From assembly GCF_020217465.1 (NCBI RefSeq), contig NZ_CP084115.1:620001-684000 (forward strand): a DNA stretch of 64,000 nucleotides. Reading direction: 5' to 3'. Made by a program: the position numbers and the translations under genes. The notes beneath the pieces are model-generated. The model searched no databases and was not told the origin of the DNA. It saw only the letters and a program-made list of their open reading frames with translations. Within the stretch, counting starts at the first letter, position 1. Every line of letters begins with the position of its first letter. The DNA comes from Cobetia amphilecti. GTDB lineage: Bacteria > Pseudomonadota > Gammaproteobacteria > Pseudomonadales > Halomonadaceae. This document shows, piece after piece, positions 316 to 9,831 of the stretch.

Positions 316-1187
316 TGAGCATTTTGATCGACAAGAACACCAAGGTGATCTGCCAGGGCTTCACTGGCGGCCAGGGTACCTTCCACTCTGAACAAGCCAT
401 CGCCTACGGCACCAAGATGGTCGGTGGCGTGACGCCGGGCAAGGGTGGTCAGACTCACCTGGGCCTGCCGGTGTTCAACACCGTCGCCGAAGCCGTTGCC
501 GAGACTGGCGCTGAAGCGTCCGTCATCTACGTGCCGGCACCGTTCTGCAAGGATTCCATCCTTGAAGCGGCCAATGCAGGCATCAAGCTGATCGTCTGCA
601 TCACCGAAGGCGTGCCGACTCTCGACATGCTGGAAGTCAAGGTCAAGTGCGACGAGCTGGGCGCGCGCGTCATCGGTCCGAACTGCCCGGGTGTCATCAC
701 TCCGGGTGAGTGCAAGATCGGTATCATGCCGGGTCACATCCACCAGCCGGGCAAGGTCGGTATCGTGTCTCGTTCCGGCACCCTGACCTACGAAGCCGTC
801 AAGCAGACCACTGACCACGGTTTCGGTCAGTCCAGCTGTGTCGGCATCGGCGGCGACCCGATTCCGGGTTCCAACTTCATCGACATCCTCGAGATGTTCG
901 AGAAGGACCCGAAGACCGAAGCCATCGTCATGATCGGCGAGATCGGCGGTTCTGCTGAAGAAGAAGCCGCTGCCTACATCAAGGCGAACGTCACCAAGCC
1001 GGTCGTCTCCTACATCGCTGGTGTGACTGCGCCTCCGGGCAAGCGCATGGGCCATGCAGGCGCCATCATCTCCGGCGGCAAGGGTACTGCCGACGAGAAG
1101 TTCGCGGCTCTGGAAGCGGCTGGCGTCAAGACTGTGCGTTCACTCGCGCAGATCGGCGATGCCATCAAGGAAGTCACTGGCTGGTAA
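315..1187 (+). CDS. sucD: succinyl-CoA synthetase alpha subunit
   Basis: A 290-residue subunit that binds CoA and carries the phosphohistidine intermediate of succinyl-CoA synthetase. The N-terminal CoA-binding Rossmann fold contains [15 protein letters not shown] near residues 15-30, [20 protein letters not shown] spans 121-140, and the phosphorylated histidine is His247 in KRMGHAGAI. The length matches the family. The start codon overlaps the sucC stop by one base, the normal sucCD arrangement. A strong intrinsic terminator follows at 1238-1270 and ends the operon. Confidence 0.98.
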
Positions 1188-1237
1188 GCCATTGATCTCC
1201 TGACAGCGATCGGCGCCAAGCGGATCGCATGTCACCG

Positions 1238-1270
1238 AAAGGGCAGGCCCATAGGGCCTGCCCTTTTTTC
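1238..1270 (+). terminator. intrinsic terminator after sucCD
   Basis: An inverted repeat (AAAGGGCAGGCCC, ATA loop, GGGCCTGCCCTTT) is followed by a T-run. It ends the sucCD transcript about 50 bases past the sucD stop. Confidence 0.9.
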
Positions 1271-1485
1271 GTTTCTGGCCCTCACCAGTCTCTCTCTAGT
1301 GCATGCCGGCGGGGTTACCTGCGGCCGGTGGCGCAGGCGAGGGGAGAGGTGTTTCGGCTGATGCAGGCGGGGCAGGTGCGTTCATATCAAGCAGTTGCTA
1401 ATCTGATGACTGTTCATTGGCACCTGACCAAGCGACACGTGCAGATGCCCCACGGCGCAACACGACTCACTGATAAGGATGTTCC

Positions 1486-2028
1486 ATGCTCAAGTCATTC
1501 CCCGCCCTTACGCGCTCCGCGCGCCTGCTGGCGTTGCTGTCCCTGCCGTTGGCTGCTGGCATGCCGCTGTCTGCCAGTGCAGATTCCGGCGCGGCGGCAG
1601 CCTCCGCCCCTGAAGCTTCAGCGAGCATGCAGGTGCCTGCCAAGGGCATCGAGTCGGTGACCAGTCGTGATGATGTCGCCTCCGTCCAGGCGCGTCTCGA
1701 GACGGCGCTCAAGGCCAAGGGGCTGACGCTGTTCAGCGTCATCGATCATGAGGCGGGTGCCGAGAAGGTCGGCATGGAGCTGCCCGCGACGCATACCGTC
1801 ATCTTCGGCAATCCCAAGGTGGGCACCCTGTTGATGCAGTGCAACGGGGCGGCCGCCCTGGACCTGCCGCAGAAGATGCTGATTCGCGCCGTGGAGGGTG
1901 GCAGCGTGATCGAGTGGAATGACCCGCAGTACATGGCCAATCGTCATGATCTGGGCGACTGCAAGCTGCCGCTGGACAAGATTGCCGGGCTGCTCAAGGG
2001 GCTGGCCGCCGAAGCGGCGGGTCAATGA
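1486..2028 (+). CDS. periplasmic DUF302 domain protein
   Basis: A 180-residue exported protein of the DUF302 family, whose biochemical role is not settled. Residues 1-32 form a signal peptide with a basic n-region, the hydrophobic stretch LLALLSLPLAAGMPL and an ASA cleavage site before Asp33. The domain covers about residues 60-160 and includes the family pattern HTVIFGNPKVGTLLMQ near residues 97-112. It stands alone, between the sucCD terminator and its own terminator at 2101-2132. I see no export lipobox, so it is probably soluble in the periplasm. No specific function can be assigned. Confidence 0.85.
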   Translation: MLKSFPALTRSARLLALLSLPLAAGMPLSASADSGAAAASAPEASASMQVPAKGIESVTSRDDVASVQARLETALKAKGLTLFSVIDHEAGAEKVGMELPATHTVIFGNPKVGTLLMQCNGAAALDLPQKMLIRAVEGGSVIEWNDPQYMANRHDLGDCKLPLDKIAGLLKGLAAEAAGQ

Positions 2029-2100
2029 AGGCAGCGCTCATCACGTGTCGATGCTGATATCGTGAACTGACAGCGAGCGCTGACGATCAGGCAGGACGAG

Positions 2101-2132
2101 AAAGCCGGACTCCTCACGGAGTCCGGCTTTTT
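2101..2132 (+). terminator. intrinsic terminator after the DUF302 gene
   Basis: AAAGCCGGACTCC and GGAGTCCGGCTTT pair around a four-base loop, followed by TT. It could also serve as a weak terminator for glpQ, which ends 40 bases away on the other strand, since the 5' arm starts with AAA. Confidence 0.85.
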
Positions 2133-2172
2133 GATGTTCCCCTGCCAAGGACTGCCTGTCTTGAAGGGCTGC

Positions 2173-3333
2173 TTACAGAGCATCACCGTGCTGCTTCAGC
2201 CACTGTACGGCGCGGTCCGGGTAGTCAGTGAAGACACCATCGACCCTGGCATCGACGAAGAAGACGCGCAGCATGTCGTCGTAATCGCTGGCCCAGTCCG
2301 GGATGCGGCCTTCATCGAGGCGGAAGGTGTAGGGCATCACGATCATGCCCTGCGCATGGGCTTTCTCGACCAGCGGCGTGACCTTGATGTCGTCCCGAGT
2401 CGAGCTGTCCTCGATCACCATCGGCTTCCACGGCCCGATGCCATCGGCGTAGGTGGCGATGCGCTGCATGCCGCCCTCCTGATACATCCAGTCATAGTCG
2501 TAGGGCTCAAGCTTGCCAGCCGCATCCGGCTGGAAGGTCATGTCCCAGCTGGTCTCGCCCATCAGCTGCACCAGACGCAGGTCCATCTCCAGTTCGGGCT
2601 GCAGCGTGTCGTGGATGCGCTTGAGGCCATTGGGATCGAAGACCTGCACGACGGCATTGTCATCCTGCGCGACGTAGCCGTAGTGCTTGAGGGTCTCGAG
2701 CACGGCTCGCGAGACCTGCTTGCCTTCCGACTGGTGGAACCAGGGCGCCTTGATCTCCACATACAGGCCGACATCGCGTCCGGTGGAGTGATTCAGGCCC
2801 TGGATCATCTCGATCTCTTCGCTCAGGGTGTGCAGGCCGAAGTGCGACTTGCCCAGCGGGAAGCGCTCAGGGTAGTCGGCGACCTGCTCGCCATCCTTGA
2901 CGGTGAAGCCCTCGCTGAACGACAGCTTGCGCAGCTCGTCCAGCGTGAAGTCGATGGCGTAGTAGCGGCCATCATCACGCGCACGCTCGGGGAAGACCTC
3001 GGCGACATTGGTCACACGGTCCAGGAAGCGGTCGTGCAGCACCACCAGCTGGTCATCCTTGCTCATCACCACGTCCTGCTCGAGGAAGTCGGCGCCCTGG
3101 GCATAGGCCATCGCCTTGGCCGCGAGGGTGTGCTCCGGCAGGTAGCCCGAGGCACCCCGGTGGGCGACCACGACCTTGTCGGTGCCATGGCCGGGGTCGA
3201 TGCTGCGCAGGGGCCTGTCATCAGCGAGTGCCGCTGAGGTCGAGGTGGCCAGCAGCGAGCCGACCACGCCCATCATGGCCAGCGGGCGGCGAATGCGGGC
3301 GGAAGTCGGGTGACGCTGGGAAGGATGCGGCAT
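2173..3333 (-). CDS. glpQ: periplasmic glycerophosphodiester phosphodiesterase
   Basis: A 386-residue GDPD that hydrolyses glycerophosphodiesters (deacylated phospholipids) in the periplasm to glycerol 3-phosphate and an alcohol. An N-terminal signal sequence of about 37 residues has a hydrophobic core and ends near ALA-DD. The catalytic signature HRGASGYLPEHT starts at His58; the metal-ligand segment FLEQDVVM has Glu85 and Asp87, and the second catalytic histidine is His100 in VVLHDR. DGRYYAIDFTLDEL and GVFTDYPD are close to E. coli GlpQ along the whole length. An AAGGTGAT ribosome site precedes the ATG. It is 134 bases downstream of the flippase-like gene on the same strand, so read-through from that operon is possible. 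No clear Pho box is seen in front of it. Confidence 0.95.
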   Translation of the reverse strand: MPHPSQRHPTSARIRRPLAMMGVVGSLLATSTSAALADDRPLRSIDPGHGTDKVVVAHRGASGYLPEHTLAAKAMAYAQGADFLEQDVVMSKDDQLVVLHDRFLDRVTNVAEVFPERARDDGRYYAIDFTLDELRKLSFSEGFTVKDGEQVADYPERFPLGKSHFGLHTLSEEIEMIQGLNHSTGRDVGLYVEIKAPWFHQSEGKQVSRAVLETLKHYGYVAQDDNAVVQVFDPNGLKRIHDTLQPELEMDLRLVQLMGETSWDMTFQPDAAGKLEPYDYDWMYQEGGMQRIATYADGIGPWKPMVIEDSSTRDDIKVTPLVEKAHAQGMIVMPYTFRLDEGRIPDWASDYDDMLRVFFVDARVDGVFTDYPDRAVQWLKQHGDAL

Positions 3334-3467
3334 GTGAGATCACCTTGAGCTGTGGTTATTGTATGGTCGTTCAATAAAGCCGCCTGCCAACATAACAAAG
3401 TCTTATTCATATGGCGATGATCAAGTGTTTTTCATGATGATGTCTGAAGCGCTGCTCGGTCGCCCCG

Positions 3468-4487
3468 TCATGTGGTCGCCGAGCGACGCTTGAGCAAGCT
3501 TCCCAGCATGCTGCGTCCCGCCATCACGAAGAACACCGGGGCGCCGGCGATCAGGTAGAAATAGAAGGTCACCGCTCGCCAGATCACCACGGCCGCCGCG
3601 GCACTGGCGGCGCCAATCATCGGGCTGAGCAGGGCAGTGGAGGACAGCTCCGCGCCTCCGGCACCGCCGGGCAGCAGCGTCAGCTGGCCCGCTGCCAGCG
3701 AGAGCATCTGCACGATGAAGGTCCAGCTCCAGTCGATGTCCTGCCCCAGTCCGGACACGGCCAGATAGAGGATCGAGTAGCGCAGCAGCCAATGGGCACA
3801 GCAGAGCAGGAAGATCAGGCTCAGCGTCAGGCGCGGCAGGGCGAGTGTCTCGACCAGCGCATGGCGGAAGTGGATCAGGCCCCGCGCCAGCTTGACGCGT
3901 GAGCGATGGCGTACCTTGAGCCAGCGCAGCAGGCGTCCGCTGGTCTTGAGCAGGCGCCGATGATGCTTGCCCAGCGCGGCCAGCAGGCCAAAGCCGATGA
4001 TCAGCAACAGCGCCGGCACGGCCAGCATCCACCCCAGGCGCAGGTCGATGGTATGCGAGAGGGCGTAGAGCCCGATGCTGGCCAGCGCCGAGAGGAAGAA
4101 CAGCATGTCGGTGATCTGATCGACCGCGAATACCGCCGTGGCCTGCGCCGGGCGCACCCCCTGACGTGACAGCAGCCCCATCAGGGTAAGCGGACCGCCA
4201 CTGCCGCCGGGGGTGGCGCTGATGGCGAACTCGGTCGCCATCACCATGCCGACGGCGCGCCGTTGCCCCAGGTGACCGCCACGCCCGGCCAGCAGCAGAC
4301 GCAACCGGCCGGCGTTCAGGTTCCAGCACATCACGATCATGCCCAGCATCAAGAGGAAGGTGTCGAGGGGGAACTGGCGCAGCTGGCCGCCCAGTCCGCT
4401 GCCACCCAGCACCAGCGGTATCGCGATGACCATCACAAGGCCAGCACCCAGTAACCAGAGGGCACGATTCATGGCAGATTCCCGCAA
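3468..4487 (-). CDS. UPF0104 / YbhN-type flippase-like membrane protein
   Basis: A 339-residue polytopic inner-membrane protein of the lysylphosphatidylglycerol synthase transmembrane (flippase-like) family, the same fold as the membrane half of MprF. About eight hydrophobic helices are visible, starting with LWLLGAGLVMVIAIPLVLGG. Conserved family segments are NAGRLRLLLAGRG, the glycine-rich loop EFAISATPGGSGGPLT, and LLPGGAGGAELSSTALL. An alternative start, MNRALW, lies five codons downstream. The gene follows the DUF2334 gene by 48 bases, forming the third member of an operon with the glycosyltransferase. I infer translocation of the lipid made by the two upstream enzymes; no substrate is shown by the sequence. 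Confidence 0.85.
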   Translation of the reverse strand: MRESAMNRALWLLGAGLVMVIAIPLVLGGSGLGGQLRQFPLDTFLLMLGMIVMCWNLNAGRLRLLLAGRGGHLGQRRAVGMVMATEFAISATPGGSGGPLTLMGLLSRQGVRPAQATAVFAVDQITDMLFFLSALASIGLYALSHTIDLRLGWMLAVPALLLIIGFGLLAALGKHHRRLLKTSGRLLRWLKVRHRSRVKLARGLIHFRHALVETLALPRLTLSLIFLLCCAHWLLRYSILYLAVSGLGQDIDWSWTFIVQMLSLAAGQLTLLPGGAGGAELSSTALLSPMIGAASAAAAVVIWRAVTFYFYLIAGAPVFFVMAGRSMLGSLLKRRSATT

Positions 4488-4535
4488 CGGGTTGTCACAA
4501 GGCCCATACGACGGGACTCATCCAGTGGGTGGGTC

Positions 4536-5378
4536 TCAGGCAGCACTGTGGGCCGCCTGGTGCGAGTTCAGTTGCGTCGTGTCAGACGTGGCGGGGGCGA
4601 GCAGCCCCTGCTGGGTCAGCCAGCCGATCTTGGTCATCGGCAGGCGCCCTTCATCGAGCAGGCGCTCGACCAGCGTCAACCAATACTGGCGTGAGCGTGC
4701 ATGGCGCATGTCGACCGGATGCAGGCCCAGACGCAACACCGGCGCCTGTTGCTCGCGGCTCAGCTTGCGCTGCGTCACCCACTGCGACATCAGGCGGCGT
4801 GGCGCGGAGCGTGCGCTCCACACGAGTCCGGGCGCATCGATGACCGTGAAGTCAGGCAGTCGATAGAGATGCTGGGGGTCACTGGTGTAGCGGAAGTCGA
4901 GGGACTTCAGAGCCTGACGAGTGCCGTCACTCATCAGCCAGGCAGGGGCCACGAATCCGTCCAATGGCCAGCCGAGGCGCTTGAAGAGTGCGGCGCCTTC
5001 CAGCAGGCGTCGTCTGGCTTCGGCCTCATCGAGGGGGTAGAACTCGCCTTCCCAGGTCAGCACGCGGCGCATCAGGTAATCGCGCGGGGTGCGGGGGGCT
5101 GGTGCGTCATCGCAGTGATGGAAGCCATGCAGGGCAAGCTCGTCCCCCTGTTGGCGGCGAGAGTCCAGCAGGGCGATGAATTCCGGAGCGTCTTCCAGGG
5201 CGCTGCGATGATGGAAGTCAGGCACCACCAGCCAGGTGATCGGGCAGGGGTGGTTCAGGCGTGCCTGGCAGAGAGCATCCACCTCGGCGACGAAGTCCCG
5301 GTAGTCGGACCAGGTCTCGGGCGCGACATCATGCAGGACCAGCAGAAAGTGCTGCTTGGCAGCCGGCGACTCAGCCAT
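4536..5378 (-). CDS. DUF2334 polysaccharide-deacetylase-like protein
   Basis: A 280-residue protein of the DUF2334 family, related to NodB-type carbohydrate esterase 4 deacetylases. The metal-site motifs are retained: HDVAP with Asp17 near the N terminus, and HGFHH with His84 and His87/88. FVAPAWLMS near residues 131-140 corresponds to the substrate-binding strand of the family. No signal peptide is visible, so it should act in the cytoplasm on a nucleotide-linked or lipid-linked sugar. Its start overlaps the 3' end of the glycosyltransferase by 8 bases, which means translational coupling. Deacetylation of an N-acetylated sugar lipid is an inference from family and neighbours. Confidence 0.85.
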   Translation of the reverse strand: MAESPAAKQHFLLVLHDVAPETWSDYRDFVAEVDALCQARLNHPCPITWLVVPDFHHRSALEDAPEFIALLDSRRQQGDELALHGFHHCDDAPAPRTPRDYLMRRVLTWEGEFYPLDEAEARRRLLEGAALFKRLGWPLDGFVAPAWLMSDGTRQALKSLDFRYTSDPQHLYRLPDFTVIDAPGLVWSARSAPRRLMSQWVTQRKLSREQQAPVLRLGLHPVDMRHARSRQYWLTLVERLLDEGRLPMTKIGWLTQQGLLAPATSDTTQLNSHQAAHSAA

Positions 5379-6495
5379 GGGTCACCTCCTCGAGTACCGG
5401 TTGCATGCGAGTCCCGGTGACCGCGTGATAATGGCCGAGCAAGCCATCCACGACACGGTCCCAGGCATGGTGCTTCTCGACATGTCGCCGCGCCTGGCGA
5501 CCCAGTGCGGCGGGGTCATTGGCGAAGACTTCCTGCACGGCACGCGCCATGGCATGCGGCGAGTGCGGGTTGCACAGCTGACCGCAGCCCAGTGGCACAT
5601 TCTCGGCCAGCGCGCCGGCGCGTGCCGCCACCACCGGCGTGCCGCAGGCCATGGCTTCCAGTACCACCAGACCGAAGGTTTCCTGGGTGCCGGCATGCAG
5701 CAGCACATCCACTGAGGCCACCAGACGCGCCACTTCGGTGCTGCTGCAGAAATGCCCGGTCACGCTGACATTGTCAGGCAGATGCCGCGGCATGCCCGAG
5801 CCGATCAACAGCAGATGGTAGTCGGGGCCGAGCAGGCGAGCGGCCTCCAGCAGCTCATCCAGATTCTTCTCGCGTGAGCCGCGTCCGGCGAAGGCCAGCA
5901 GGCGCACGTGGTCTTCCAGGCCAAGCTCGCGGCGCAGGCTCTCATCGCGGCAGTCAGGGTGGAAGGTGGAGAGATCGACACCGAGTGGCTGGATATGGAC
6001 ATTGTCGACGCCGAGCCGGTCGAGCCGGTCGGCCATCACCTGGCTGGGGGCCAGCACGCGATCGAAGTGGCGATAGAGGCGTTTGACGTAGCGATCGACG
6101 TTGGCCCCTGACCACTCGCCCAGGCGATTGGTGATCAGGCGCGGCAGGTCCGAGTGATAGAAGCCCAGCACCGGGACATCGAGCTTGCGACCGGCATCGA
6201 GTGCCGCCCACGCCGTGACGTAAGGGTCGCCGGCCTCGATGACATCCGGCTGCAGTGCCAGCAGCGTGCTGACCCAGCCGCCCCGGCGCAGGGGGAAGCG
6301 ATAGCCGTTGCCGAAGGGAATGGGCGGTGCCGGCACGCTATAGAGGTCATCACTGACACTGGTGGTCTCGCCGGGGACCAGCAGGCTGTGACGAACATCG
6401 GGCCGCGTCCGCAGACGTCGTCGCTTGGCTTCCAGGTAGGTTCTGACCCCGCCACTGGAGGGGGCATGGAACATGGTCATGTCAGCGATATGCAC
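5371..6495 (-). CDS. GT4 family glycosyltransferase, PimB/SqdX-like
   Basis: A 374-residue retaining glycosyltransferase with a GT-B fold. The N-terminal acceptor domain has the glycine-rich SSGGVRTYLEAK at 13-24 and YHSDLP near residue 113. The C-terminal nucleotide-sugar domain has GRGSREKNLDELLEA (Arg205, Lys210) and the EX7E motif QETFGLVVLE (Glu272 and Glu280). The YHSDLP and VLAPSQVM features resemble enzymes that glycosylate lipids (PimB', SqdX, MgtA) more than those that build polysaccharides. It is the first gene of the operon with DUF2334 and the UPF0104 protein. Neither the donor sugar nor the acceptor can be read from the sequence. Confidence 0.88.
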   Translation of the reverse strand: MHIADMTMFHAPSSGGVRTYLEAKRRRLRTRPDVRHSLLVPGETTSVSDDLYSVPAPPIPFGNGYRFPLRRGGWVSTLLALQPDVIEAGDPYVTAWAALDAGRKLDVPVLGFYHSDLPRLITNRLGEWSGANVDRYVKRLYRHFDRVLAPSQVMADRLDRLGVDNVHIQPLGVDLSTFHPDCRDESLRRELGLEDHVRLLAFAGRGSREKNLDELLEAARLLGPDYHLLLIGSGMPRHLPDNVSVTGHFCSSTEVARLVASVDVLLHAGTQETFGLVVLEAMACGTPVVAARAGALAENVPLGCGQLCNPHSPHAMARAVQEVFANDPAALGRQARRHVEKHHAWDRVVDGLLGHYHAVTGTRMQPVLEEVTHG

Positions 6496-6856
6496 ACGGA
6501 CTCCTCAAGACCGCTTTACCGGTCGTGCGCGATGAAGATGAATCCCGACGTCACTGCCCGCCATGGCTGCCTTGTCGTGCTTCAGGGTGCTCCCGGGTGC
6601 TTGAGAAAGACGCAATCGAGCACGCAGATTCCAGCAAGCCAGTGGCATTGACGAACGAGCCTCTGGTCAAGTCATGGGGGGAACCCGACGTGAAACCAAG
6701 GGCAGAGGCATGACATGCGGTGTCGCGCGTGACGAGACGCCTCGCCACGCGATGTTCCACACTGCGGCTGGCAATGACGTTACATCAGGAGATGACTGGT
6801 CTGTGTGACAACAGGGAACAATGTTGGTGCGATGCGCGCCCGGTCTCGGTCATTTG

Positions 6857-6913
6857 TCATCAAGCTCCTGTCATCAGGCTCCTGGCATCAGGCTCCTGGC
6901 ATCAGGTTCACTG
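6857..6913 (+). repeat. 14-bp direct tandem repeat, four copies
   Basis: Units TCATCAAGCTCCTG, TCATCAGGCTCCTG, GCATCAGGCTCCTG and a diverged GCATCAGGTTCACTG lie head to tail. Two neighbouring units differ by a single base. No gene covers them on either strand. Confidence 0.85.
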
Positions 6914-7013
6914 CCAGGGGAGGAGAGAAGTCACGCCATGCTGGCGATGGTCCAGCAGGGAGTGCGGCAGCTGGCCTCTGGTCAGTGCTGCGCAAGAGAA
7001 GCCATACGACATG

Positions 7014-7051
7014 CAAAAAAAGACCCTGTCCGGAGCCACCGGACAGGGCAA
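7014..7051 (-). terminator. minus-strand terminator downstream of the 125-residue membrane protein gene
   Basis: CCCTGTCCGG and CCGGACAGGG pair around AGCCA. Read on the minus strand the hairpin is followed by TCTTTTTTT. It is about 165 bases past the stop at 7217. Confidence 0.8.
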
Positions 7052-7216
7052 GTGCGTGCACTACAGGAATACAGGGGGCGACAGGGGGGAGGGTCGCCGG
7101 AGCGGGCATTGCAGGGTCTAGCAGTGGATCGACTCAGTCATGTCTGGCATCCGTGCCTGGTGTTGCATGGGGTCCTGGCATCGTTATCTGTCCTGATGGA
7201 GGGAGATCGGGCGTCA

Positions 7217-7594
7217 TCACGCCAGTCCATGCTGGGACAGGTGCAGGGCGCTGGGCATTGCCTGGCCAAGCTCCTGCGAGAAGGCGGCTTCCGGCTCGGC
7301 TGGGCGCTGGCTGGCGAGCAGCACAAGGCTCAGCAGCAGGCCGGCGGCCAGCAGCAGGCGGTTGCGGTTGCGGCGGCGATCACGTTCCAGCAGCATCGCG
7401 ACATGTTCCATCGCTTCACGTTGAATCTCACGCTGGCGCTCCGGAGAGGTGGAGCTGCCATCCGAGCTTCTGCCTGAGCTGCTGTCTGCTGCGGCGTCGA
7501 CGCGGGCGTAGCTCATGGCCGGGTGACGAACGATGGCGGCATGCTCGGCCAGGTGACGCAGTGAGGTAGCTGCAGTGGAGCGATGAGTTTTCAT
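7217..7594 (-). CDS. hypothetical single-pass membrane protein
   Basis: A 125-residue protein I do not recognise. It has a hydrophilic, serine-rich N-terminal half, a charged helix at 52-77 (ERQREIQREAMEHVAMLLERD), a strongly basic RRRNRNR and then one transmembrane helix at about 79-96 (LLLAAGLLLSLVLLAS). A short tail follows. The positive charges before the helix predict an N-in, C-out topology. A GAGGA ribosome site lies about 9 bases before the ATG, and a minus-strand terminator follows. These points support a real gene despite the lack of a known family. Confidence 0.6.
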   Translation of the reverse strand: MKTHRSTAATSLRHLAEHAAIVRHPAMSYARVDAAADSSSGRSSDGSSTSPERQREIQREAMEHVAMLLERDRRRNRNRLLLAAGLLLSLVLLASQRPAEPEAAFSQELGQAMPSALHLSQHGLA

Positions 7595-7786
7595 TTCCGG
7601 GTCCTCGCATGGACGAACTTCATCAGGGACAGGCTTCAGTCATTCGCGCTTGGTCAATCCAGTAACGCTGCAGCAGTGAAAGCAGATGTCGTGTGTCGAT
7701 GTGAGGAGTATAGCGTGAGCTTCTGTTTCACAAAATTACAATTTCTCACGCTTGGTACACGCACCGTATACGCAATGCACAAGAAC

Positions 7787-7821
7787 GAAAAACGCCCCGG
7801 GCGCAGAGCACTCCGGGGCGT
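7787..7821 (-). terminator. intrinsic terminator after RNase II
   Basis: ACGCCCCGG and CCGGGGCGT pair; on the minus strand the hairpin is followed by TTTTTCGTTC. It lies about 65 bases beyond the rnb stop. Confidence 0.85.
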
Positions 7822-7884
7822 AGATGGCCGTGGCAATTGCCCGTGATGACAAGGCAGTTACATACGGCAGTGGTGGGTCGCGGC

Positions 7885-9831
7885 TTATTCGGCCGGACGA
7901 CCTACCAGTGAACGACGCTCTTCACGGGCTTCGGTCAAGGAGACCTTGATGATGTCGCCCAGTGAGTAACGCAGCTCGTCTTCGATGCGCACGCGGCCTT
8001 CCTTGTCATCGATCGCGACCTTCTTGCGATCGCTGTGGATCAGCGGTGCCGGAATGAAGACGCTGGCGCCATTCTCTTCCAGACGCACACGCATGCCGCC
8101 ACGACGGATGTCGATGATCTCGCCAGTGAAGACCTGCTGTTCTTCGGCGGCCTTGGTCAGGTAGCGCACGTAGAGCCAGTCCTTCACATCGCGCTCGGCC
8201 ATGCGGTTGAGACGACGACGTTCGCTGAGGTGCTCGGTCAGCTGCTCGGTGGCTTCCGCCGGCACGTCCTGGCCGAGAATCACGCGCTTGATCAAGCGGT
8301 GGTTGACCATGTCGCCGTACTTGCGGATCGGCGAGGTCCAGGTCGCGTAGGCTTCCAGACCCAGACCGAAGTGCGGCCCCGGCTGAGCGGACATCACGGT
8401 GTAACCCTGGAAGCGACGCATGCGCACGTCCAGCCAGGTGTCTTCGCGGCTGTCCAGCTCCTGACGGATCAGGCGGTAGCCTTCCAGGCTGCCCAGCTGT
8501 TCCGGCGTGGCGGTGATGTTCTGACCAGCCAGGAACTCGATGGTGTCGTCGTACTTCTCCGGCGCGAAGCCCTGGTGCACGTTGAAGATACCGTGACCGA
8601 TGTGCTTGGAGAGCAGACGTGCGCAGCTCAGGTTCGCGGTGATCATGGATTCTTCGATCATGCGATTGCTGATGCGGCGGTGGTCGGCACGTACGTTGAG
8701 CACGTTGCCTTCCTCATCCAGCTCGAACTCGAAGTCCGGACGCTCGCGGAAGACCTGGGAATTGCGTGCACGCCAGGCGATACGCGCCTGGGTGAAGGCT
8801 TCCAGCTGACGCAGACCTTCGGCCAGCTCTTTGGTTTCCGGCTTCCAGCTGCCTTCCTGGCCTTCGATCCAGTCGGAGACGTTGTCGTAGGTCAGGCGGT
8901 GGTGGGAGCGCATGGTGGCCGCAAAGAACTTCGGCTCGCCGATCACGCCATCGGTATCGATGTCGACGATGCACATCAGCGTCGGGCGGTCTTCACCTTC
9001 CTTCAGCGAGCACAGGTCGTCGGCCAGGATTTCCGGCAGCATGGTGACGTTCTGGCTCGGCAGGTAGACGGTGAAGGAGCGCGTGCGCGCCTCTTCGTCG
9101 ACACGGCTGCCTTCCGGGACGTAGGCGGTCGGGTCCGCGATGGCGATGCTCAGGGTCCAGCCGCCTTCCGGGCGCTCGACGATGTGCAGGGCGTCATCCA
9201 TGTCACGCGTCTTCTCACCATCGATGGTGAAGAAGGGTACGTGGGTCATGTCTTCGCGAGTCAGGCCTTCCTCGAGCAGCGGCCAGTCAGTGCCGCCCTC
9301 CGGAGAGGCCTGTTCCAGCGCGTGACGCGCCAGGGTGACGCGCCACGGCACACGCGGGTTGTCCACGGTGGCGATGACTTCCTCGATCTGGGCGAAGAAG
9401 CTGCGGTCGTCCTTGCGCATCGGGTGACGCAGCAGACGTGCCACGACCCAGTCGCCATCATTGAGGGCTTCCTCATTGATGCCACGCTTCACACGCGCTT
9501 TCATGCGCGTGTTGATGGAGGGATGATCCGGCATCACGTTCAGGCGGCCATCACGCTTGCCGACACGAGCGACGAAGCGATCGACACCCGTCTCAATCAG
9601 CACTTCCGGCTGTACGGACTTCTTCTCACCTTCCACCTTGACGGTCGCTTCGACGGTATCGCCGTGCAGTACCTGCTTCATGGCGGGTGGCGGCACGAAG
9701 TAAGACTCGCCGTCCTCGCATTCGAGGAAGCCGAAGCCCTTGTCGGTGCCTTTGATCACCCCCGTGACACGGGGAATTTCCTGGCGGATTTGATCTTTCA
9801 GCTGCGCCAGCAGCGAATTGTTCTGCAGCAT
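7885..9831 (-). CDS. rnb: exoribonuclease II (RNase II)
   Basis: A 648-residue processive 3'-5' exoribonuclease of the RNB family that degrades single-stranded mRNA. Two N-terminal cold-shock OB domains (from about residue 20, TGVIKGTDKGFGFLECED) are followed by the RNB catalytic domain, with Asp204, Asp210, Asp212 and Asp213 in DGEKTRDMDDALH matching E. coli Asp201, 207, 209 and 210. A C-terminal S1 domain starts near residue 570 (FTGEIIDIRRGGMRVRLEENG). Length and N terminus (MLQNNSLLAQLK) are those of E. coli Rnb rather than the longer RNase R. It is transcribed alone. Confidence 0.96.
   Translation of the reverse strand: MLQNNSLLAQLKDQIRQEIPRVTGVIKGTDKGFGFLECEDGESYFVPPPAMKQVLHGDTVEATVKVEGEKKSVQPEVLIETGVDRFVARVGKRDGRLNVMPDHPSINTRMKARVKRGINEEALNDGDWVVARLLRHPMRKDDRSFFAQIEEVIATVDNPRVPWRVTLARHALEQASPEGGTDWPLLEEGLTREDMTHVPFFTIDGEKTRDMDDALHIVERPEGGWTLSIAIADPTAYVPEGSRVDEEARTRSFTVYLPSQNVTMLPEILADDLCSLKEGEDRPTLMCIVDIDTDGVIGEPKFFAATMRSHHRLTYDNVSDWIEGQEGSWKPETKELAEGLRQLEAFTQARIAWRARNSQVFRERPDFEFELDEEGNVLNVRADHRRISNRMIEESMITANLSCARLLSKHIGHGIFNVHQGFAPEKYDDTIEFLAGQNITATPEQLGSLEGYRLIRQELDSREDTWLDVRMRRFQGYTVMSAQPGPHFGLGLEAYATWTSPIRKYGDMVNHRLIKRVILGQDVPAEATEQLTEHLSERRRLNRMAERDVKDWLYVRYLTKAAEEQQVFTGEIIDIRRGGMRVRLEENGASVFIPAPLIHSDRKKVAIDDKEGRVRIEDELRYSLGDIIKVSLTEAREERRSLVGRPAE

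Follow-up and report, generated by a model that had tools for sequence, protein, structure and literature searches.

A three-gene operon on the minus strand of the Cobetia amphilecti chromosome is very probably the Cobetia copy of gpgSDF, the genes through which Pseudomonas aeruginosa makes glucosaminyl-phosphatidylglycerol (GlcN-PG) by way of N-acetylglucosaminyl-phosphatidylglycerol (GlcNAc-PG). The operon lies in a stretch of 64,000 nucleotides (nt), referred to here as the window (NCBI RefSeq assembly GCF_020217465.1, contig NZ_CP084115.1, positions 620,001 to 684,000), from a genome that is a single contig of 4.16 Mb. Its parts, in the coordinates of the window, are as follows.

6495-5371, minus strand: gpgS, GT4 glycosyltransferase, predicted N-acetylglucosaminyl-phosphatidylglycerol synthase; 374 amino acids (aa), GTG start
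5378-4536, minus strand: gpgD, DUF2334 protein, predicted GlcNAc-PG deacetylase; 280 aa
4472-3468, minus strand: gpgF, UPF0104/LPG_synthase_TM membrane protein, predicted GlcN-PG flippase; 334 aa from ATG
5371-5378, minus strand: 8-nt overlap of the gpgS stop and the gpgD start, read from the sequence

All three proteins passed equivalog models of NCBIfam release 20. GpgS scored 615.9 bits against NF053787 (GlcN_PG_synth; cut-off, 480), GpgD scored 392.7 bits against NF053788 (GlcNAc_PG_deac; cut-off, 280), and GpgF scored 468.3 bits against NF053789 (GlcN_PG_flip; cut-off, 320). The Pfam matches were PF00534 (8e-24) and PF13439 (1e-21) for GpgS, PF10096 (1e-28) for GpgD, and PF03706 (1e-42) for GpgF. 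The genes follow one another in the order S-D-F on one strand with tight spacing: the overlap of gpgS and gpgD is likely to couple their translation, and 63 nt separate gpgD from gpgF, counted from the gpgF ATG. An alternative gpgF start, the TTG at 4487, would give a protein of 339 aa; the NCBIfam match of GpgF begins at residue 6, which favors the ATG at 4472 as the start. From the equivalog matches, conserved motifs, folds, and operon structure, we infer the same activity as that of the P. aeruginosa genes. An earlier note on this DNA, made from the sequence alone, had placed genes of the GT4, DUF2334, and UPF0104 families on the minus strand at 6495-3468, and the open reading frames (ORFs) and Pfam matches bear out both the coordinates and the families; the note did not recognize the trio as a named system, which it is.

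GlcN-PG has been known since the 1960s; its genes received their names only in 2025, and for a single species. The description of gpgSDF dates from November 2025 and concerns P. aeruginosa PA4311-PA4313, which are PA14_56030-56050 (PMC12713373); in the literature searched, the name gpgSDF appeared in one paper. According to the accessible part of that paper, an insertion in gpgS abolishes both GlcNAc-PG and GlcN-PG. An insertion in gpgD abolishes GlcN-PG and leads to accumulation of GlcNAc-PG, and gpgD in trans restores GlcN-PG, while an insertion in gpgF leaves GlcN-PG present at a lower level. Escherichia coli carrying the three gpg genes makes both lipids, and with gpgS alone it makes GlcNAc-PG only. 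A UDP-N-acetylglucosamine (UDP-GlcNAc) donor and flipping by GpgF are proposals of the authors of PMC12713373. The synthase and deacetylase steps have thus been established experimentally in P. aeruginosa and would hold for Cobetia by analogy; the sugar donor, the flipping, and the physiological role are inferred in both organisms alike.

In the pathway that we propose for Cobetia, GpgS would act in the cytoplasm and attach GlcNAc to the head group of phosphatidylglycerol (PG), with UDP-GlcNAc as the most likely donor. GpgD, a predicted metal-dependent deacetylase with the fold of carbohydrate esterase family 4 (CE4), would then remove the acetyl group to yield zwitterionic GlcN-PG, which GpgF would probably translocate across the inner membrane to its outer face. 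The net negative charge of the surface would be lowered, as with MprF, and no tRNA would be needed. The earlier note had arrived at the same series of steps (an N-acetyl sugar added to a lipid, deacetylation, and flipping) and at the functional parallel to MprF; both agree with what the accessible part of PMC12713373 demonstrates or proposes, and the steps agree with the equivalog matches as well. Its "positively charged" glycolipid has to be revised, since the lipid is PG and the product is zwitterionic rather than net positive. The flippase role that it gave the UPF0104 protein is a prediction, both here and in PMC12713373.

Active site and fold of GpgD

GpgD contains both motifs that the earlier note had read in it as metal motifs, HDVAP at residues 16 to 20 and HGFHH at residues 84 to 88. 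The sites marked by conservation are as follows.

5319-5333, minus strand: HDVAP motif of GpgD, residues 16-20 (H16, D17)
5115-5129, minus strand: HGFHH motif of GpgD, residues 84-88; H84 and H88 conserved, H87 not
4716-4721, minus strand: H220-P221 of GpgD, candidate catalytic histidine region

At least 98% of 109 distinct GpgD sequences agree at each of H16, D17, H84, H88, D90, and H220-P221, and H87, the middle histidine of HGFHH, is not among the conserved positions. H220-P221 presumably corresponds to the catalytic histidine region of CE4-like enzymes. A phmmer search of the Protein Data Bank returned no sequence homolog of GpgD at E <= 1. An AlphaFold2 model of GpgD, built with 41 sequences, had a predicted local distance difference test score (pLDDT) of 87.8. 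Its best row in Foldseek was 2c71, an acetyl xylan esterase (E = 4.1e-6), and the top row in VIA-align was a polysaccharide deacetylase (Z = 16.6; root mean square deviation, 3.1; 213 residues aligned). The 50 VIA-align rows (Z = 13.2 to 16.6) were mostly polysaccharide, chitin, or peptidoglycan deacetylases or acetylxylan esterases; the allantoinase PuuE stood third, and ArnD was also within the top nine. The earlier note had suggested structure prediction of the DUF2334 active site; the predicted structure of the protein has a carbohydrate-deacetylase fold. The model indicates that GpgD adopts the CE4 fold, with H16, D17, H84, and H88 as candidate metal-site residues.

Conservation of the operon

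With GpgD as the sole query, we kept the best 80 of 432 candidate loci, in which gene starts were picked by script. These 80, called the named loci here, come from Pseudomonas, Stutzerimonas, Azotobacter, Chromohalobacter, and Cobetia. GpgS was encoded directly upstream of GpgD in all 80 and GpgF downstream on the same strand in 75; the median distance between S and D was -8 nt, with an overlap in 67 loci. In loci chosen by GpgD alone, this constancy shows that the gene neighborhood is not due to chance. The gene purU adjoins the operon in 58 of the 80, which are of the Pseudomonas type. The five loci in which S and D lack an adjacent F (L033, L038, L064, L071, and L080) are all from Pseudomonas. 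No GpgF over the cut-off was found in the whole genomes of these five, three control genomes being positive, and three of the five gave weak GpgF matches of 22 to 49 bits.

We also searched 151 genomes of the window's family with each model, the family being the group so drawn by the genome search; NCBI places Cobetia in the Halomonadaceae. GpgS was over the cut-off in 98, GpgF in 98, and GpgD in 55. S and F occurred in the same 98 genomes, adjacent and on one strand, with D between them in 55 and absent from 43; wherever D was over the cut-off, the order was S-D-F (55/55). The gene-neighborhood check suggested by the earlier note thus gave the expected result for loci with GpgD; the trio is not always complete, given the 43 genomes with S and F only. 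The gene set is shared by many Pseudomonas and by 55 of the 151 family genomes sampled. Broader samples, each including the window's own genome, gave a GpgD over the cut-off in 4 of 115 genomes at the level of the order, in 6 of 229 for the class, and in 6 of 299 for the phylum. One family genome (G364:C1:3059771-3062496) holds the three gpg genes in pieces that score below the cut-offs, through decay or assembly errors, and was counted as having none.

Donor sugar and alternative explanations

The synthase carries one pair of glutamates in near-invariant columns, which we take to be the EX7E motif of retaining GT4 enzymes.

5656-5682, minus strand: E272...E280 of GpgS, near-invariant columns; Q271 directly precedes

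In Foldseek, an AlphaFold2 model of GpgS (pLDDT, 85.7) matched MshA in rows one to four; sucrose-phosphate synthase, BshA, and GlgM came next, and PimA was also listed. MshA and BshA use UDP-GlcNAc, and sucrose-phosphate synthase is a UDP-glucose enzyme.

Several points weigh against the assignment to gpgSDF or against parts of it. Sucrose-phosphate synthase outranks BshA in the fold search, which mixes UDP-GlcNAc and UDP-glucose enzymes, and so the fold does not decide the donor. NF053787 also calls the synthases of operons that lack the deacetylase, with similar scores, so that passing this model does not prove the sugar. The link to P. aeruginosa gpgSDF runs through the NCBIfam models rather than through direct sequence comparison. 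The five Pseudomonas genomes without a GpgF over the cut-off suggest that some hosts have replaced GpgF or can do without it. Finally, complementation of the P. aeruginosa gpgS mutant was not achieved, according to the accessible part of PMC12713373.

It is quite unlikely that the GlpQ homolog downstream of the operon takes part in the pathway, for example by recycling glycerophosphoryl-glucosamine from the turnover of GlcN-PG.

3333-2173, minus strand: glpQ-like glycerophosphodiester phosphodiesterase; NF008354, 529.8 bits; 134 nt beyond gpgF

The gene shares the strand of gpgF, and it adjoins the operon in one of the 80 named loci (L002, from Cobetia crustatorum) and in all four fetched loci of the window's genus (L154-L157), L154 and L002 being one genome with the same coordinates. 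A 121-aa remnant similar to the GlpQ C terminus also adjoins gpgF in a further genome (L142/L187; Pfam GDPD, 17.6 bits, below the cut-off). Against these cases, no GlpQ match was found in 79 of the 80 named loci, nor in 55 of the 56 loci, with flanks of ~1.5 kb, that were fetched from family members of other genera. With the adjacency confined to the genus and one remnant, GlpQ probably lies outside the system, and we rejected it as a pathway member.

A second alternative, which we regard as very unlikely, is that the operon makes a hexosamine glycolipid on a carrier other than PG, either diradylglycerol, as hexSDF does, or a polyprenyl lipid. The GT4 fold does fit many acceptors, and HexSDF, whose product is aminohexosyl-hexosyl-diradylglycerol, has the same order of roles (PMC10128005, accessible part). 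However, the equivalog models that were passed by wide margins are named for the PG system, and the protein families differ: HexS carries the annotation of a monogalactosyldiacylglycerol synthase, and HexD that of a polysaccharide deacetylase (PMC10128005), whereas GpgS is a GT4 enzyme and GpgD a DUF2334 protein.

That the Cobetia GpgD is inactive or acts on another substrate, leaving the lipid as GlcNAc-PG, is extremely unlikely: the absence of D from 43 of the 98 family genomes with S and F does indicate that some hosts can do without the deacetylated product, but the residues conserved in the 109 sequences are intact in the window's GpgD, its score is more than 100 bits above the cut-off, and its gene overlaps gpgS, an arrangement seen in 67 of the 80 named loci.

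A form of the operon without gpgD

The window's trio is an already known, named system, and the novelty here is the variant that lacks D, together with its possible tie to the glucosyl-PG of Halomonas. As a tentative proposal, the family may carry two forms of the operon at one site: S-D-F, which makes GlcN-PG, and a D-less S-F form in which the sugar has changed and which would be the missing synthase-flippase pair for glucosyl-PG.

The gap between S and F in the 43 D-less family genomes is 43 to 164 nt, except for gaps of 422 to 442 nt in five genomes, in which the beginning of F was split off as a match of its own. We read 40 of these 43 operons (L114-L153), and tblastn at E <= 1e-20 found no D in the 40 stretches. 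In a tree of 85 GpgS rows, the 40 D-less synthases formed one clade with support of 100/100, and the branch joining this clade to the nearest S-D-F rows was weak (80/29). Mean identity was 72% within the clade and 56% to the S-D-F synthases of the family. The clade has R271, directly before E272, in 40/40 rows, Q103, G106, and C151 in 39/40 each, and L61 in 36/40; in the 40 near S-D-F rows, the residues are F61, R103, and S151 in 40/40 and Q271 and D106 in 37/40 each. Five more distant S-D-F rows share some of these residues (G106 in 5/5, Q103 in 1/5, and R271 in 1/5), and single residues are therefore not unique to the D-less clade. We dropped an attempt to read the donor of the clade from residue 271: the residue before the first E of the motif varies among GT4 enzymes of one donor, so it does not discriminate glucose from GlcNAc. 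The single clade of S is not cleanly repeated by F, since the 39 D-less F rows need two changes in the F tree, not one; that tree leaves out 7 of the 85 rows, namely, the five without F, L134 (short F), and L154. The gpgF of L134, a D-less operon in genome G262, has an in-frame TGA and is either a pseudogene or the result of a sequencing error.

The S-D-F and S-F forms occupy the same chromosomal place in the family. Either sucCD or rnr adjoins 36 of 40 D-less operons (both in 9) and 18 of the 20 S-D-F loci read (both in 7). Six loci (L135, L139-L141, L171, and L172) show neither within the short flanks used; a longer stretch of the L171 genome (L188) shows rnr, and a longer stretch of the L139 genome (L189), which ends near a contig end, shows neither. 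Both forms occur within two genera (g205, with 18 S-F and 2 S-D-F operons, and g214, with 4 S-F and 2 S-D-F), which suggests exchange between species.

Single genes of the operon were also observed. Marinobacter nauticus VT8 carries, on its conjugative plasmid pMAQU02, a lone gpgS of the D-less type (L182:5001-6119). The encoded synthase has the same five clade residues, is up to 84% identical, and scored 597.7 bits against NF053787; no D or F is annotated beside the gene, and tblastn at E <= 1e-4 found none in 11 kb. An orphan gpgF (L183:4048-5046) in another genome of the window's order (G435) lies between purU and an ORF that looks permease-like by eye, with no match to S or D in the 8 kb read. 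The lone plasmid gpgS and the orphan gpgF suggest that parts of the operon have been lost or moved singly.

Without a deacetylase supplied from another locus, a D-less S-F operon cannot yield an amino lipid. Its product should be a sugar-PG that is still negatively charged, like PG itself: GlcNAc-PG with the original sugar, or glucosyl-PG after a change of sugar. A PG-hexose lipid from Halomonas is attributed to Giordano et al. 2007 in the accessible parts of two papers (PMC6423904, PMC7356697), and a term search of the accessible text of PMC12713373 gave no mention of Halomonas. No gene for the glucosyl-PG of Halomonas was found in the literature searched, which lacked most subscription papers. 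To our knowledge, no such gene is known. The hexose of the lipid of Giordano et al. is reportedly glucose, and a glucosyl-PG synthase activity in a halotolerant bacterium is said to have been described by Stern and Tietz in 1978. The D-less operons are candidates for the source of this glucosyl-PG. If the tentative proposal is true, the NCBIfam name "N-acetylglucosaminyl-PG synthase" is wrong for the D-less clade, and the S-D-F and S-F forms represent a natural switch between zwitterionic and anionic sugar-PG. The D-less form offers candidate genes for the sugar-PG of Halomonas and would make an old biochemical observation directly testable.

MprF in the host and its family

The synthase domain of MprF (PF09924) had no match in the window's genome at E <= 0.001. 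Among the 151 family genomes, it was over the cut-off in 9 and reached E <= 0.001 in 15. Seven of the nine carry S-D-F, and in the other two none of S, D, and F reached its cut-off; all six genomes with weak matches carry S-D-F. Conversely, 48 of the 55 S-D-F genomes have no PF09924 over the cut-off, the six with a weak match included. We considered mutual exclusion of MprF and gpgSDF and rejected it, because seven of nine PF09924 genomes carry S-D-F and MprF is simply rare. GlcN-PG may be the main route by which these hosts lower the charge of PG.

Sequence features upstream of gpgS

A terminator-like hairpin lies between gpgS and the ORF upstream.

7023-7049, minus strand: terminator-like hairpin upstream of gpgS; 11-pair stem and T run, a consensus match only

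The region contains six terminator-like sites, compared with 1.8 expected from shuffles. The hairpin (7049-7023) separates gpgS from the upstream ORF, and its position would place the transcript start between 7022 and 6495. No sigma-70 consensus promoter was found in 2000-7900, and no Rfam family at gathering score was found as a leader RNA element in 1000-8000. A tandem repeat at 6858-6906, also upstream of gpgS, consists of 3.5 copies of the 14-base unit CATCAGGCTCCTGG with a 94% match. Farther upstream, an ORF of 125 aa (7217-7594, minus strand) has no Pfam match at E <= 0.01; among the loci compared, it adjoins the operon in the window's genus only.

Comparison with known systems

The window's operon resembles gpgSDF of P. 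aeruginosa in its three protein families, in their order, and in an equivalog-level match for each protein. It differs in its host, a marine Cobetia, and in its location, the operon of the family lying by sucCD or rnr rather than by purU, as in 58 of the 80 named loci. In addition, P. aeruginosa has MprF (PMC12713373, accessible part), whereas the Cobetia genome has no match to the MprF synthase.

The hexSDF operon of Clostridioides difficile likewise combines a synthase, a deacetylase, and an MprF-like flippase. There, HexSF without HexD gives the N-acetyl lipid, and HexSD without HexF still gives the amino lipid. Unlike gpgSDF, hexSDF uses other synthase and deacetylase families, makes a diradylglycerol glycolipid, and is regulated by HexRK (all from the accessible part of PMC10128005). 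GpgS, for its part, matches GT4 Pfam families and NF053787 and not a monogalactosyldiacylglycerol synthase of the hexSDF type.

MprF, the synthase and flippase of lysyl- or alanyl-PG, also alters the charge of PG, and its membrane part belongs to the PF03706 family, as does GpgF. Unlike the gpg proteins, it is one fused protein with an aminoacyl-tRNA donor, in which PF09924 is joined to the membrane domain; GpgF matches PF03706 only. The sugar-PG of Halomonas is similar to the predicted product of the window's operon in having a hexose on PG, and it comes from relatives of the window's host (PMC6423904, PMC7356697, accessible parts), but its hexose is neutral and has no amino group, in contrast to the product of gpgSDF.

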